Source of the DNA: Methylophilus sp. DW102
GTDB taxonomy: Bacteria > Pseudomonadota > Gammaproteobacteria > Burkholderiales > Methylophilaceae
Direction of reading: 5' to 3'
Length of the DNA: 64,000 nt
Assembly: GCF_037076555.1 (NCBI RefSeq)
Contig: NZ_AP029023.1
Span: forward strand, 248,001 to 312,000
Part shown: one piece after another, positions 20,986 through 31,076 of the stretch
Layout: each line of letters opens with the position of its first letter
Numbering within the stretch: the first letter of the stretch is position 1
The notes under the pieces: generated by a model
What the model was told of the DNA's origin: nothing
Seen by the model: only the letters and a program-made list of their open reading frames with translations
Database searches by the model: none
Position numbers and translations under genes: made by a program

Positions 20986-21996
20986 ATGGCAAACACTTCA
21001 GTGGTCGTGGTCGGCGGTGGCATCGTAGGCTGCCTCACTGCCATGCAGTTAAAGAAACAAGGGCACACCGTCACGCTGGTTGAGCGCAATATCGTCGCTG
21101 CGCAAACGTCAGGGGAGTCTTCGTGGGCTGGGGCGGGCATCGCTTTTCCGCTGTTGCCATGGTTTTATCAGGAGATTGTCAACGAGCTGGCGCTGGCTGG
21201 TGCGCGCGCCTATCCAGCCGTCAGTGCAGAGCTCCTTGCCGAAACCGGTATAGACCCCGAATGCACGCGTAGCGGCATGCTGATCCAGCCGCCGTTTGAC
21301 CAGCAGGCAGCCCTGGACTGGTGCCAGCGCTATGGACTGCAAGCAGAGTTGCAAGGAGATAACCTGCTAATTCCAGAAGTGGTGCAAATCCGTAACCCGC
21401 GCCTGCTACAATCGCTCAAAGCGTGGTTGATCAAGCATGGCGTCACTCTGCGCGAACAAACACAACTCATGCCCTTGCAAGAAGGTGCTTCCAGCATCCA
21501 CACCTGGCAAACCACAACGGGCGACACCTTGTCGGCCGACCATTTTGTCGTCACCTCCGGCGCCTGGAGTTTTGAGCTACTCAAACAAACCGCGCTGAGT
21601 CTGGAGATCAAACCCATGCGCGGGCAAATGCTGTTGTATCAGATGTCCCCTGGCCTGCTACCGCATATTCTTTACCGTGAAGGGTTTTACATGCTGCAAC
21701 GCCGCGATGGGCACTTGCTAGCCGGCAGTAGTCTGGAAGATGTCGGTTTTGATACCGGGGTGACTGAAAGCATGCGTCAGGAAATGCTGCAAAAAGCCGA
21801 GGCGATTCTGCCAGCTTTACGTGGGCAGCCAGTGATCAAACACTGGAGCGGGTTGCGTCCCGGCACGCCGCACAATATCCCGACTATAGGCCGTCATCCA
21901 AACATTGAGAATCTGTATTTGAATACAGGGCATTTTCGCTATGGTGTAACGATGGCACCAGCATGTGCGCGACGGATTGCGGCGTTATTATCTTGA
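20986..21996 (+). CDS. thiO: Glycine oxidase ThiO-like FAD protein
   Basis: ThiO oxidises glycine to the imine used by ThiG in aerobic thiazole synthesis. The 336-residue protein is a DAO-family flavoenzyme: Rossmann FAD motif VVVVGGGIVGCLTAMQL at the N-terminus, SGESSWAGAGI, the substrate-domain KPMRGQML and a C-terminal GHFRYGVTMAPACAR. Presence of thiS-thiG in the same window supports the ThiO assignment over other D-amino-acid oxidases. It stands alone behind a terminator. Confidence 0.87.
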   Translation: MANTSVVVVGGGIVGCLTAMQLKKQGHTVTLVERNIVAAQTSGESSWAGAGIAFPLLPWFYQEIVNELALAGARAYPAVSAELLAETGIDPECTRSGMLIQPPFDQQAALDWCQRYGLQAELQGDNLLIPEVVQIRNPRLLQSLKAWLIKHGVTLREQTQLMPLQEGASSIHTWQTTTGDTLSADHFVVTSGAWSFELLKQTALSLEIKPMRGQMLLYQMSPGLLPHILYREGFYMLQRRDGHLLAGSSLEDVGFDTGVTESMRQEMLQKAEAILPALRGQPVIKHWSGLRPGTPHNIPTIGRHPNIENLYLNTGHFRYGVTMAPACARRIAALLS

Positions 21997-22773: not shown

Positions 22774-22812
22774 TGGGTGTATTTTCTAATCTCAGGGTTT
22801 ATTTGCTTAGTT

Positions 22813-22904
22813 TGCCACCCAATCCCCACTCTTCCCACCATGTTTTTCCAGTACGCGAACACTTTGTATTGTCATGCCGCGATCAATCGCCTTACACATA
22901 TCAT
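22813..22904 (-). repeat. Left attachment repeat (detached moaC 3' end)
   Basis: This copy is identical to 30594-30685 over 81 bases, then has one mismatch at 22894 and ten more matching bases. It encodes the end of MoaC ([20 protein letters not shown] and on to GDWVA) in a frame that ends in Asn at 22807, with no start or body of moaC, so it is a gene fragment left by site-specific recombination. Confidence 0.93.
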
Positions 22905-26472: not shown

Positions 26473-28836
26473 CTAATCGTACCCCCAGTCTATTTCACCA
26501 CCACAAAACCGTTCAAACTCGGCTTTGCATTCTGAGAGACCAGAGAAACGGTGTCCCCTTTGCTTAGAGTAGGCATTCCCTCGTCTCTCAGGAGACATAG
26601 AGGGGGTTAATTGCTTTAATGCCGAAATAAAATCGCGTTGGGTTATTGCAAAAAGTTTGGCACCACTTTTTTTCGCGCTCTCTAGGAAATCAGGATAAAG
26701 AATGTCTGTTGCTATCCATTCTTGCCAATCATTAGAAGTACATAGTTGGCGCCCATCGGTCAAACGGTCTAACCACCATTTAGGCACAGCATCGAGAGAC
26801 GCGAGCTTTTGACGCATCAGTTCAGAGGATTTTGGCCGCTGCCTAACTTCAAAGGAGGATAGGTCATGGTGTTGCAAATCGAAAGCTAAAGCTTCAAGCC
26901 CGCCTCCTTTTATTTCCGTATCCAGTGCCTTCCAGTATGCGAAATCGCCTTTCCGGGCCTCTGAAAGTCTAAGAACAAATTTACGGCGGTCATCTTCTTC
27001 AACGTGTGCAGCATGGGTGTTATTTGAGGCTGCAATAATTCGGTGGTAACTAGTGATTTGTCGCCCAGGTTGAAATTTCGCATTAATTTGAAGGCGCGAT
27101 TCGGTTTCCACTGCTTTGAGAATGTTTGCAGCTTTACGGTCCCCCGAGAAAAACGCCTCATCGGCAAAAACCACAAGTGAACTTTCCAAAGCCTCGTTAA
27201 AGGTTCCAGTTAAAGCCGCATCGGACTGCAAGTGTAAGAAGTGATGTGCATACAACCCGCCAACGATCTTTGCGGCAAATGTTCCTTTACCGGTCCCTTG
27301 CCCACCTAAGAGCAAAATCGATACGCCGGGCTTCTCAGCTGGCTTCTGGATTAGGTGCGCCATCCATCCCCAAAGGTAATTAAAGTACTCCGTCGAACCA
27401 GCGCAAACGATGTCTTTTAGGAAGGACGAAATCAATGGGTAATTACCCTGTTTTGGTGTAACCGACAAACCTCGAAAAATATTTAAATAGCCAGGCGTAG
27501 TGCCAGAGGGGTTCAACTCCACGCCGTAAAACATCTTGGTTTGGGGTGCTTTCCACCATGACCGAAACTCTTTAGCTGAATCTGCTTGCGGATTTGATGC
27601 GGCAATAGCACGCTGAATTAAAAAGCCGCCATCATCACGGGAATAAATGTTTAAGGGTTTAAGAGTGCTCACCTCTTTGGCCTGCTCAAGGTCAACAATT
27701 CCAACCTTTGACCCAAGTCTAATTAGCCCAAAGCATGAGAGGCCTTTTAGTTTCTCAGTCGCAGTGTCAGGACGCGCCCAGCCATTATCTTTTGCACGTT
27801 TAAATAGTGATCCAATCCCTAAAAACGACTCACCGTTTTTATACTTTGCGCTGGTGCCCAAAAGGTAACTAGCCCACTCGCTGTCGTTATTCTCTCTATT
27901 AGCTCCGGCAGGTCTGCTTGCAACATCGTCTAAAATCTCCCTTGCCACGGTTTCGGGCCAATCATTGACGATAACCAATGAGGCTAGAGAATTACCTAAC
28001 TGGTAGAAACTTTCACGGTCTGGTATACCATCAGGCCATGCAGCTCGTGCCGCAGATAACACCATTTCGCGGTTCTCTTTTGTGTATGGGAGATTGTGAG
28101 TTGTTTGTTTTCCCAACACTTCACCAGATGGGAACATTGCCGCGATATGTCGCGGAATTTCCCCCAATTGAGTTTCGTCGCTACTCGTAGAATTAGCCGC
28201 ATCTGGCTGCACACCCAAGCCGCTAATGATTTGGTCGATTGAGTATCTTGGTAACTCAGGATTAGATTCAACCACTCGCACAAGAAATGGCGCACCTTTT
28301 TGATGATAAAAACCGGGTAGTCTCAACACCCGCGGTAAATCCTTTACACGGGGGTCAGTCTCATATTGTGTGGCAATCGCGGTTTGAATTTCAGTAAATC
28401 TGCCAAGCGGAAATGCGCCATCTACAAGCCAATAAACATGGTAGTTACCTGGGCTACTCTCAACAATAATATGCGGTTTAAGAACAAGAAGCGGCTCCAA
28501 TGGTGCGCCATCAGTATCTGCAAACACGGCGCGAATGCGAGTAATGTCATGGCCTTGCTGACCTCCTTCGTTGATTACAACAAAAACACCTGCACCGGCA
28601 TGGTTTAGTTCGATTAACCGTTTAAACGAGTCGAGTGAGTTTGATATTTTGTGGTTGCCTGCTAGATGTCCTCGACGAGGTTTTTTGTCGTCAATTGTTC
28701 TTGTATGAAACTCTTTAGCGTGCGGCGCCAAAGTGGATAAAAATTTGAGGGCTTCACCCGTGTTTACTGGCAGGTGTTCAAAATGTTGTGGAGGTGCTAC
28801 TGCGGGCGCAGTAGCATGAATTGTGGTATAATCCAT
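26473..28836 (-). CDS. Primase-helicase of the island (RepB-like primase, D5/P4-type ATPase)
   Basis: The 787-residue protein joins an archaeo-eukaryotic-type primase to a superfamily 3-like helicase. The primase part shows the metal-binding FADTDG (Asp107, Asp109), SSPGNYHVYW with the catalytic His133, and LPRVLRLPGFYHQKG. The ATPase part has Walker A GGQGTGKGT (511-519) and Walker B LVVFADEAFF (about 554-563), of the DUF5906 type. Proteins of this plan start and unwind replication of satellite phages and integrative plasmids. The start has an AAAGGA site that directly adjoins a hairpin. It is the main gene of the leftward island operon. Confidence 0.88.
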   Translation of the reverse strand: MDYTTIHATAPAVAPPQHFEHLPVNTGEALKFLSTLAPHAKEFHTRTIDDKKPRRGHLAGNHKISNSLDSFKRLIELNHAGAGVFVVINEGGQQGHDITRIRAVFADTDGAPLEPLLVLKPHIIVESSPGNYHVYWLVDGAFPLGRFTEIQTAIATQYETDPRVKDLPRVLRLPGFYHQKGAPFLVRVVESNPELPRYSIDQIISGLGVQPDAANSTSSDETQLGEIPRHIAAMFPSGEVLGKQTTHNLPYTKENREMVLSAARAAWPDGIPDRESFYQLGNSLASLVIVNDWPETVAREILDDVASRPAGANRENNDSEWASYLLGTSAKYKNGESFLGIGSLFKRAKDNGWARPDTATEKLKGLSCFGLIRLGSKVGIVDLEQAKEVSTLKPLNIYSRDDGGFLIQRAIAASNPQADSAKEFRSWWKAPQTKMFYGVELNPSGTTPGYLNIFRGLSVTPKQGNYPLISSFLKDIVCAGSTEYFNYLWGWMAHLIQKPAEKPGVSILLLGGQGTGKGTFAAKIVGGLYAHHFLHLQSDAALTGTFNEALESSLVVFADEAFFSGDRKAANILKAVETESRLQINAKFQPGRQITSYHRIIAASNNTHAAHVEEDDRRKFVLRLSEARKGDFAYWKALDTEIKGGGLEALAFDLQHHDLSSFEVRQRPKSSELMRQKLASLDAVPKWWLDRLTDGRQLCTSNDWQEWIATDILYPDFLESAKKSGAKLFAITQRDFISALKQLTPSMSPERRGNAYSKQRGHRFSGLSECKAEFERFCGGEIDWGYD

Positions 28837-28852
28837 TCTGAAATATTCCTTT

Positions 28853-28871
28853 AGGTCGGCCCAGCCGACCT
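28853..28871. promoter_or_regulatory. Perfect hairpin abutting the primase ribosome binding site
   Basis: An 8-bp perfect inverted repeat (28853-28860 with 28864-28871, loop of three) ends one base before the AAAGGA site of the primase gene. Read on the plus strand it is followed by a T-run and would act as a terminator; on the mRNA strand it can control access to the start. Its GGTCGGC arm is complementary to the leader RNA at 29299-29306. Confidence 0.6.
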
Positions 28872-28995: not shown

Positions 28996-29214
28996 CTAAC
29001 CTGTGTTTTTTGAATCTGGAAAATATTGAGCGATAATGTCCGACTTACGGTAAAGCACTCGGATGCCCACTCGAAAAGATTGGGGCGTCTTTCCTGCGGC
29101 TTCTTCATTGTGAAGCCATCGAACTGTATGGTTTAGTGCTGCTGCGACTTGTTGGCGTGTCACGAACGCTTGTGGGTGGGCATCCCAGAATTGATTTGAT
29201 AAATCAGCCATCAT
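28996..29214 (-). CDS. AlpA-like helix-turn-helix regulator
   Basis: The 72-residue protein has a MerR/AlpA-like winged helix: VTRQQVAAALNHTVRWLHNEE then FRVGIRVLYRKSDI. AlpA-type proteins act as excisionases or activators of integrase in P4-like satellites and cryptic prophages. A GAGGA site precedes tandem ATGs at 29214 and 29211. It is the first gene after the promoter and noncoding leader at 29250-29409 and begins the operon that continues to the primase. Confidence 0.75.
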   Translation of the reverse strand: MMADLSNQFWDAHPQAFVTRQQVAAALNHTVRWLHNEEAAGKTPQSFRVGIRVLYRKSDIIAQYFPDSKNTG

Positions 29215-29248
29215 CGTAAAATCCTCACGAATCCGGTCGATAGAAATG

Positions 29249-29375
29249 AAAAAACCGACCGGGCCAACAGAAAATGCATTTCTGCATCACCATTCGCTGG
29301 GTCGGCTAGGGTCAGGATTTAACCCACCAGTCATAATTCCGTGGGCGCTTACCTGATTCACTTTAGCAAGCTATA
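29249..29375 (-). ncRNA. Candidate C4/CI-like antisense RNA in the operon leader
   Basis: A promoter at 29380-29409 should start an RNA near 29373. It folds into a two-part hairpin (29352-29356 with 29312-29316; inner 29341-29345 with 29323-29327) and then a terminator-like stem (29300-29305 with 29255-29260, inner stem 29268-29273 with 29279-29284) followed by six T residues (29254-29249). A promoter-driven, terminated RNA of about 125 bases in front of an operon is the plan of the P1/P7 C4 and P4 CI immunity RNAs. Its GCCGACC can pair with GGTCGGC in the primase hairpin and CCGGTCG with CGACCGG close to the AlpA ribosome site. Family membership is inference. Confidence 0.6.
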
Positions 29376-29379
29376 TGTG

Positions 29380-29409
29380 ATTATAACCACGGAAACTGCC
29401 AGAAGTCAA
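29380..29409 (-). promoter_or_regulatory. Sigma-70 promoter of the island operon and leader RNA
   Basis: On the minus strand TTGACT (29409-29404) and TATAAT (29385-29380) are separated by 18 bases. It is the only good promoter between the integrase and the AlpA-like gene. Confidence 0.75.
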
Positions 29410-29468
29410 GGTAAATATTGCGTAACTAATTGATTTTAAAGTGTATACTTGTAAAATCCCTAGGTGTG

Positions 29469-30452
29469 TTATCCAATCTTTCTAGCTAAATCCTCGGCTT
29501 TTGGATGGTAATATCTAGCCAACATCTGCACGTTTTTATGCCCGGTTACTGCGGCCAACTCAATGAGATTTGGTAGTTTTTCTGACAGTCTAGTCGTTGC
29601 GGTGTGCCTAAGATCATGAAAGTGTAGGTTTACTAGCCCAGCCCGTTTAATCGCCCGTTGAAAGCAGTACTCCATTGCAGGCCACTTAATCGGAAACACT
29701 AAGCCCCCAATACTGCGCGGTAATACGGCTAATTCGTTTACTGCTCGTTCTGATAAAGGTACTGTTCGTGACGTACCATTCTTCGTGTCGGGCAAAAATG
29801 CTGTCCGCTTGATTAAATCCACATTACGCCATTCAAGACCTAATAGTTCTCCCCGACGCATAGCAGTCTCAAGCGCGACAATAACCAATGGGCGCATGTA
29901 TATATTTCTGTTTCTTACAGGGCGCATAGCCTCTAATAGTCTTGCTTCTTCTTCCATTTCTAAAACACGGTTTCGCCCAGGGGGCATAGTTGGCTTCCTG
30001 ATAGCCATCACTGGGTTAACAATGGCATACCGCCACTCTTTTATACAGTAGTTAAAAACAGACGAGAGCGCCGCTAAGTCCCGTATAACCGTGTTTGCCT
30101 TGCAGGTCTTTAGTCGTTCGTCACGATATTCGGCCATAACTTTTGGGGTGACATTCGCAAGCATCATCTGCCCCATGCGTAAACGCTGCACGGCTTTTAG
30201 TTTTGCAATTTCGGTTAAGTAGCCCTTGTGGGTCGGGCTAACCTCTTTCATATAGAGGTCAAGAATTTCTGAGAAACTGATTTGTTCGGCGGGTGAGCGA
30301 CTTACGTAAACACCTCTATCCATTTCGGATTCGATACTACGCGCCCACTGTTCCGCGCCTGTTCGTGTTTCAAATGATTTAACTTCGGGAGGAAATCCCT
30401 TACGAGTAATTCGAGCTTGCCAACGCTCGCCACGCTTTCTAATAGATGCCAT
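29469..30452 (-). CDS. Tyrosine-type site-specific integrase
   Basis: This phage-type integrase has an N-terminal arm-binding region (MASIRKRGERWQARITRKGF), a core-binding SAM-like domain and the catalytic domain with Arg in MRRGELLGL, HDLRHTA, the second His in TGHKN and the nucleophile Tyr in ARYYHP. The 327-residue form starting at 30452 is preferred over the start at 30464. It lies next to the attachment repeat in moaC, and should catalyse the insertion of this island. Confidence 0.95.
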   Translation of the reverse strand: MASIRKRGERWQARITRKGFPPEVKSFETRTGAEQWARSIESEMDRGVYVSRSPAEQISFSEILDLYMKEVSPTHKGYLTEIAKLKAVQRLRMGQMMLANVTPKVMAEYRDERLKTCKANTVIRDLAALSSVFNYCIKEWRYAIVNPVMAIRKPTMPPGRNRVLEMEEEARLLEAMRPVRNRNIYMRPLVIVALETAMRRGELLGLEWRNVDLIKRTAFLPDTKNGTSRTVPLSERAVNELAVLPRSIGGLVFPIKWPAMEYCFQRAIKRAGLVNLHFHDLRHTATTRLSEKLPNLIELAAVTGHKNVQMLARYYHPKAEDLARKIG

Positions 30453-30464
30453 TTTTCGCCTCAC

Positions 30465-30482: not shown

Positions 30483-30587
30483 AAACGTGTTTTTAGGCTT
30501 GTTCTATACTGCTCAACTAATCGCGGGACTAATCAAAACAGGGCGGATTCTTGAATAACCAAAAGGGCGCTAAACCCTTATAAAGGC

Positions 30588-31076
30588 TTACTCTGCCACC
30601 CAATCCCCACTCTTCCCACCATGTTTTTCCAGTACGCGAACACTTTGTATTGTCATGCCGCGATCAATCGCCTTGCACATATCATAAATTGTCAGCAGGC
30701 CAACCTGTACAGCAGTCAAGGCTTCCATTTCCACCCCGGTTTGCCCGGTGGTCTCACATTGCACTCGGCAAGTAATACTGTGTTGCGTTTCATTCGCCAT
30801 AAAACTGACATCTACGCGGCTTAGGCTAAGCGGGTGGCAGAGGGGGATCAGGTCGCTGGTTTTTTTGCTGGCCTGGATGGCGGCAATGCGGGCAATGCCG
30901 AGGACGTCGCCTTTTTTGGCGGTGCCTTGCAGGATGGTTTGCAGCGTGGCTGCCTGCATTTGAATCTGGCCTTCAGCGATGGCGATGCGTTTGGTGTGTG
31001 CTTTGTCACCGATATCGACCATATGGGCATGGCCTTGGGCGTTAAAGTGGGTGAGTCCGTTGTTGGCAGTTGACAT
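30588..31076 (-). CDS. moaC: Cyclic pyranopterin monophosphate synthase MoaC
   Basis: MoaC converts the cyclic intermediate made by MoaA to cPMP in molybdenum cofactor synthesis. The 162-residue protein is complete: [28 protein letters not shown] with the catalytic His, [20 protein letters not shown] and [14 protein letters not shown]. Start 31076 (MSTANNG) matches the family; the longer frame to 31205 does not. Its last 90 bases are the right attachment repeat, so the final residues come from the island (ending VAE) whereas the detached copy ends VAN. Confidence 0.95.
30594..30685 (-). repeat. Right attachment repeat (3' end of moaC)
   Basis: This is the copy of the 92-bp direct repeat that forms the 3' end of intact moaC; its partner is 22813-22904. 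The crossover lies within the 81 bases of perfect identity. Confidence 0.93.

Follow-up and report, generated by a model that had tools for sequence, protein, structure and literature searches.

A candidate off-switch leader RNA in an exchangeable cassette behind the integrase of a Methylophilus island

Whether a small integrated island of Methylophilus sp. DW102 is controlled by a short RNA of its own is the question raised by the locus studied here. P1/P7 and P4 are known to use RNA-based immunity, and the first-pass annotation of the 64-kb stretch of DNA under analysis (the window) proposed an unreported immunity RNA of the C4/CI type on the minus strand, between an integrase gene and an AlpA-like gene, which would block the operon downstream. 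We address below what this RNA would be, with what it may pair, and by which means it could act.

The island and its predicted RNA

The 100-bp 3′ end of moaC is repeated to the left of the integrase region, with 97 of 100 bases identical (Table 1). The name moaC is our presumptive reading of a 205-aa ORF. Six of 20 moaC loci were compared with the window; in L253, L254, L256, L257 and L259 the moaC end lies at most about 0.9 kb from sequence matching window position 21986 and lower, and the island is absent, and in L252 the contig ends before the flank matching 21986. Based on the repeat ends and the island-free loci, the island measures about 7.8 kb. It carries the integrase, a small helix-turn-helix (HTH) protein and a primase/helicase, all on the minus strand. 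The HTH protein matched two PHROGs entries, phrog_66 (“excisionase and transcriptional regulator”, E 0.0048) and phrog_2528 (E 1.1e-4), which link it weakly to the excisionase/regulator family; no Pfam family scored over the cut-off (HTH_17, E 0.17, fell below it). Its relatives comprise two clusters among 5.8 billion proteins, P0001 with 14 contigs behind it and P0002, an 80% identical HTH protein from a 7.9-kb contig.

Table 1. Features of the island and its RNA locus, in window positions
Feature	Position	Strand	Basis or remark
Left copy of 100-bp moaC 3′-end repeat, island end	22805..22904	plus	repeat comparison
Primase/helicase (RepB_primase + DUF5906)	26473..28836	minus	domain search
Primase-leader hairpin GGUCGGC/GCCGACC	28853..28871	minus	stem kept, loop changed in sister island
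Small ORF, 37 codons	28880..28993	minus	between HTH gene and primase
AlpA-like/excisionase-like HTH protein, 72 aa	28996..29214	minus	PHROGs
Exchangeable cassette: promoter, RNA and HTH gene	28998..29468	minus	replaced in sister island
RBS hairpin UCGUGA-GGAUU-UUACGA, SD partly in loop	29214..29230	minus	antisense partner AGGAUUU, 29225-29219
Terminator-like hairpin (AGCCGACC/GGUCGGUU, long upper stem) and T6	29249..29307	minus	fold and wider terminator scan
Predicted RNA, ~125 nt	29250..29374	minus	promoter, terminator-like end and fold; start and end inferred
Hairpin 1, two-step (UCAGG/CCUGA + GCCCAC/GUGGGU, 13-nt loop)	29312..29356	minus	MFE and centroid
AAAUCCU, complement to SD of AlpA-like gene	29314..29320	minus	CCU paired inside hairpin 1
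Promoter TTGACT-18-TATAAT	29380..29409	minus	11/12 consensus matches
Tyrosine integrase	29469..30464	minus	domain search
Right copy = moaC 3′ end, island end	30586..30685	plus	repeat comparison

The promoter that the first-pass annotation had pointed out is borne out, and it is one of three sites in the whole window (both strands) that reach at least 11 of 12 consensus matches with a spacer of 16-18. The two-step hairpin and the terminator-like stem with six T residues, likewise described before, both appear in the fold of 29240-29374, whose minimum free energy of -46.2 kcal/mol compares with a shuffle mean of -34.3 (z -3.39; 1 of 200 shuffles equally stable). The second hairpin covers 29307-29253 and is followed by TTTTTT at 29254-29249. 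A terminator scan allowing loops of 3-8 did not list this T6 hairpin, and a wider scan for a 6-base GC-rich arm directly before T6 yielded 10 entries across the 64 kb, this hairpin among them, each overlapping or mirrored site counting as an entry of its own. From the promoter and the terminator-like end we predict the same length as was first claimed, about 125 bases between the integrase and AlpA-like genes, and it is from these signals in the DNA that we infer both the existence of the short RNA and its ends.

Two short ORFs occur in the leader, at 29334-29287 (15 codons) and 29287-29225 (20 codons), overlapping as TGATG. The second ends within the Shine-Dalgarno (SD) region of the HTH gene, which would allow translational coupling; both are short and come from a single sequence, and a function as leader peptide is a possibility. 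A separate observation concerns TTTAAAATCAATTAGTTACGC, located just behind the integrase (29420-29440). Slightly altered copies of it occur in other genomes of the family (L102-L106), and those in L102 and L103 have an integrase-like start on one side and, as judged by eye, an apparent tRNA-Ser gene on the other. The sequence is perhaps an integrase site.

Cassette exchange and candidate target sites

A DNA search of 187 genomes of the family gave a match in eight, including the host, and a long match besides the host in G017 only. This genome, of the same genus, harbors a sister island that is also integrated at moaC. The two islands share 80% DNA identity up to the integrase stop (29469) and 82% from 28997 onward, but the 471 bp between (28998-29468) have no similarity except for a weak 20-base match (16/20) just behind the integrase, and the two HTH proteins gave no alignment. 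Given that the sister island has a different RNA region and a different control gene in this place, the RNA probably belongs to an on/off switch that can be exchanged. Unlike the HTH gene, the 37-codon ORF is retained in the sister island. A third element, in G518, has an integrase 51% identical to that of the window; its HTH protein is related to that of G017 (38% identity, E 8e-20), and the leaders of these two are alike (1 of 500 shuffles). The window leader has no clear likeness to either (53/500 for G017 and 366/500 for G518). Since this second leader type accompanies its own HTH gene, leader and HTH gene appear to travel together. Exchange of this kind would be the behaviour of an immunity region, and a protein-operator pair would also fit.

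In the integrase-HTH gaps of G017 (L101) and G518 (L110) the words TTGGCTCGG, CGAAGACC, TACTACT and ACAAGACC are shared in the same order. The pattern TTGGCTCGG..CGAAGACC was found in 79 stretches of viral contigs and matched three times in 260 genomes, a list outside which G017 and G518 lie; one of the two further words was present in six of these 82 places and both in none, which indicates no wider family.

Homologs of the window RNA itself were absent from 33 other loci, and an RNA model run against 399 genomes returned, besides itself, two weak matches (22.0 and 21.4 bits) that we take as chance. Viral contigs, searched by protein and by pattern, contained no homolog of the RNA or the HTH gene (31 stretches, without R1 match), nor did phage and plasmid DNA. 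Among 101 genomes the HTH protein occurs in the host only, and genome contigs yielded one distant relative. This relative, from Legionella waltersii (L003, 4780-5000; 36%), is located behind a promoter-like site and a hairpin-rich leader of its own, as judged by eye. A 20-base DNA match to G533 (L107) was also discarded as chance.

Two target sites had been suggested for the RNA, the leader of the AlpA-like gene through 7 bases and the primase hairpin through 8. The 7-base complement is present and faces the SD, which sits in a hairpin with six pairs at probability 0.87-0.97 and a seventh at 0.42 (mean unpaired probability of GAGGA, 0.518). Taken alone, the complement is weak. Of 500 dinucleotide shuffles, 38 reach a 7-base run against the 24-nt SD stretch, 18 reach the duplex energy, and 88 have a run of this length against the 41-nt leader, a frequency that leaves a second leader 7-mer (AGAAAUG/CAUUUCU) within chance. 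Moreover, the SD complement came out of a post hoc search of seven targets. Of 55 larger genes in the window, those at most 200 bases from an end being skipped, eight have a comparable SD hairpin and none an upstream antisense 7-mer. We regard the AAAUCCU/SD complementarity as suggestive of targeting. The other leaders give such an anti-SD rule no support, because the 7-mer that the G017 leader has against the stretch from SD to start codon is reached in 24 of 300 shuffles by length and 226 of 300 by energy, and the G518 and L003 leaders contain no notable antisense (254/300 and 244/300). Burial of the SD in cis by the RNA part was rejected, SD accessibility being 0.518 with and without it.

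The 8-base complement to the primase hairpin also exists, at 29307-29300, but is doubtful as a target. A run of 8 bases against the primase leader is reached in 36 of 500 dinucleotide shuffles. Counting G-U pairs, the window RNA and the hairpin share a 17-base run (1/500) and a duplex of -35.1 kcal/mol (6/500). The run is longer with the own hairpin (17, 0/300) than with that of the sister island (11, 18/300), whereas the duplex energy is better with the sister hairpin, at -42.9 kcal/mol (0/300; 65-nt target) against -35.1 for the own one (56-nt target). The stem is kept in the sister island despite the replaced RNA region, and the sister duplex is the stronger. The complementarity would come down to shared GGUCGG/GCCGACC words, and a role as second target is a doubtful possibility.

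Known RNA families and the int-alpA slot

Searches of the window against Rfam at the gathering score, and around the RNA locus with E values up to 10, returned zero matches. The same library found C4 in P4 (74.9 bits) and P1 (68.8 bits), isrK in P4, where it is located upstream of the C4/CI RNA, and c4-a1b1 in P1. The C4 covariance model (RF01695), with which the first-pass annotation had proposed to check its claim, did not match the window RNA, and neither did the isrK (RF01394) and c4-a1b1 (RF03163) models. Given the negative models and the positive P1 and P4 controls, membership in the C4/CI family is unsupported.

The claim of novelty was overstated too, as Rfam already contains a family at the same position. 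The int-alpA RNA (RF02996), present above the cut-off in 66 of 300 genomes from the order, lies like the window RNA between the integrase and an alpA-type gene, on the same strand, and a relative of the window primase occurs in an element with int-alpA RNA behind its integrase (L005/L033). The int-alpA model gave no match to the host genome at E values up to 10 (150 of 298 first-look candidates scored), and our own int-alpA model (R2, 45 loci), run with filters off, found nothing above 1.5 bits overlapping the window RNA, compared with 60.4 bits at the positive locus L033.

We read 50 of the 85 int-alpA matches listed (L045-L094), all over the cut-off; two of these loci, L075 and L076, belong to the host's family. 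In most of these loci the loop of the second hairpin (B), such as CCUUC, CCCUUG or CCCUA, is complementary both to a site immediately behind the RNA and to the SD of the next gene. One locus was unparsed, and the word was absent in six loci for the site behind the RNA and in four for the SD. A variable loop base is complementary to the site behind the RNA in 38 of 43 loci (shuffle mean 15.9, largest 26; 0/5000), with several kinds of pairs (A-U, U-A, G-C, C-G), and to the SD in 26 of 45 (shuffle mean 17.4, largest 25; 0/5000), where C-G pairs in CCUUC loops account for 22 of the 26 and none of the 11 loops with G in this place (CCUUG) matches the SD. On average, the true partners score above every one of 200 swaps, both behind the RNA (5.58 vs ≤5.08) and at the SD (5.38 vs ≤5.24), but since shuffles and swaps ignore relatedness, the strength of this covariation is overstated to an unknown degree. 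In 45 of 50 loci an SD word is found within a hairpin loop closed by at least four pairs, against 25.7 expected. From this analysis a C4-like anti-SD design is possible for int-alpA, the covariation being strong behind the RNA and weaker with the SD; another reading is a plain loop-tail pseudoknot with the SD match as a by-product. An anti-SD role was not found in the literature, where, in the portions of text available, the name occurs among predicted RNAs without follow-up.

Like int-alpA, the predicted window RNA folds into two hairpins and carries a stretch that complements the SD of the gene behind it, and in both cases this SD is held at least partly in a hairpin loop. They differ in that an outer stem closes the ~70-nt int-alpA RNA, whose anti-SD occupies the hairpin-B loop and is matched by a site immediately behind the RNA, whereas the outer stem in the window fold uses bases behind T6. 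Of three 7-mer partners in the 41-nt leader of the window, none repeats the SD word.

C4 of P1/P7 and CI of P4 (RF01695) are likewise short structured RNAs, co-oriented with and upstream of the operon they control, and the C4 target site b2 in P1 lies near the start of the target gene (just before icd in the P1 annotation), as does the candidate site in the window. In contrast, the window RNA has the terminator-like hairpin inside it, and an outer stem and two paired sites (a, b) as in C4 are at most a possibility for it. The C4-like action first read in this locus keeps some support, from the int-alpA slot, the swap together with the HTH gene and the antisense 7-mer facing an SD partly in a hairpin loop; the family assignment fails. 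isrK, c4-a1b1 and P4 seqA (RF01394, RF03163) are promoter-proximal leader RNAs, as is the RNA predicted here. P4 CI is reported to pair with seqA and seqC of its own leader, which results in premature termination, SeqA is described as a structural homolog of IsrK, and IsrK, a short RNA ending at an intrinsic terminator with read-through into a regulatory operon, acts on its own read-through mRNA (PMC4825925). The plan of the window locus is similar, but no second complementary RNA of the CI/STnc1160 kind was identified downstream in the window. The locus may combine the transcript plan of IsrK with a target site like that of C4 or int-alpA. Transcription attenuators also place a terminator between promoter and gene and permit alternative pairings, as the window does, but for the window RNA we identified neither a known ligand nor a leader-peptide signature nor a binding protein.

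Proposed mode of action and rival explanations

We propose, with a probability of about 0.4, that the locus encodes an off-switch leader RNA within an exchangeable, immunity-like cassette, C4-like in action and not in family. A strong promoter behind the integrase would produce a leader RNA that mostly ends at the intrinsic terminator as the ~125-nt short RNA, and a minor read-through fraction would also cover the AlpA-like HTH gene and the primase operon. Leader RNA and HTH gene would form one exchangeable regulatory cassette resembling an immunity region. The short RNA would keep the HTH gene off through termination itself and also in trans, with AAAUCCU pairing to AGGAUUU, the SD of the read-through mRNA, as C4 does for icd/ant; the pairing in trans and the direction of its effect are what we infer.

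The main rival, which we consider a genuine though rather doubtful alternative, is a cis attenuator, in which the hairpins would only set the passage of polymerase into the HTH gene and the released RNA would have no job in trans. Its means could be alternative pairing (CUGACC or CCGGUCG with GGUCGG/CGACCGG), translation of a micro-ORF, or a factor. A terminator-like hairpin does sit between promoter and gene, GGUCGG/CCGACC words permit alternative pairings, two short ORFs cross the leader with one ending at the SD, and a trans step becomes unnecessary. Such an attenuator nevertheless leaves the 7-mer complement of the SD and the SD hairpin unexplained; by our own estimate chance alone would supply ORFs of 15-24 codons, and one sequence cannot show a conserved alternative structure. 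Many immunity regions are protein-operator pairs, and this counts for a protein switch, where the swap would be driven by the HTH protein with its operator and promoter, and the leader hairpin would be no more than a terminator for integrase transcripts and an ordinary 5′ leader. That the HTH protein is excisionase/AlpA-like and that the promoter lies within the replaced part agree with this explanation, which we judge unlikely given the unusually stable fold (1/200), the terminator behind the promoter of the HTH gene, which would cut that gene's own expression, and the conserved RNA family that fills the slot in many related elements.

The reverse sign of regulation, a read-through mRNA that is translationally inactive until the short RNA turns it on in trans, seems very improbable to us. 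The plan of Gifsy-1 IsrK is alike in promoter, short terminated RNA, read-through mRNA and upstream ORF (PMC4825925), and isrK stands upstream of the C4/CI RNA in P4. Nonetheless, the RF01394 model is unmatched, the pairing found covers the SD and would repress, and folding gave no long form in which the RNA part sequesters the SD (165 of 200 shuffles as low or lower).

Beyond the off-switch leader RNA itself, it can be speculated, at odds that we think low, that the integrase-HTH gap of small integrative elements serves as a slot for interchangeable immunity RNAs, and that at least int-alpA and the window RNA share the anti-SD trick. If so, unrelated RNAs would fill this gap, int-alpA in many elements and the window RNA or the G017/G518 leader in others, and in int-alpA and the window RNA at least, an anti-SD segment would pair with the hairpin-held SD of the regulator gene that the element carries. 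On this view the window RNA would be the first of a new family, and int-alpA would count as an antisense family of the C4-like kind. The covariation between loop and sites in int-alpA gives this widespread family a directly testable role. If small environmental betaproteobacterial elements use interchangeable RNA-HTH cassettes, the compatibility groups of these islands could become readable from sequence.
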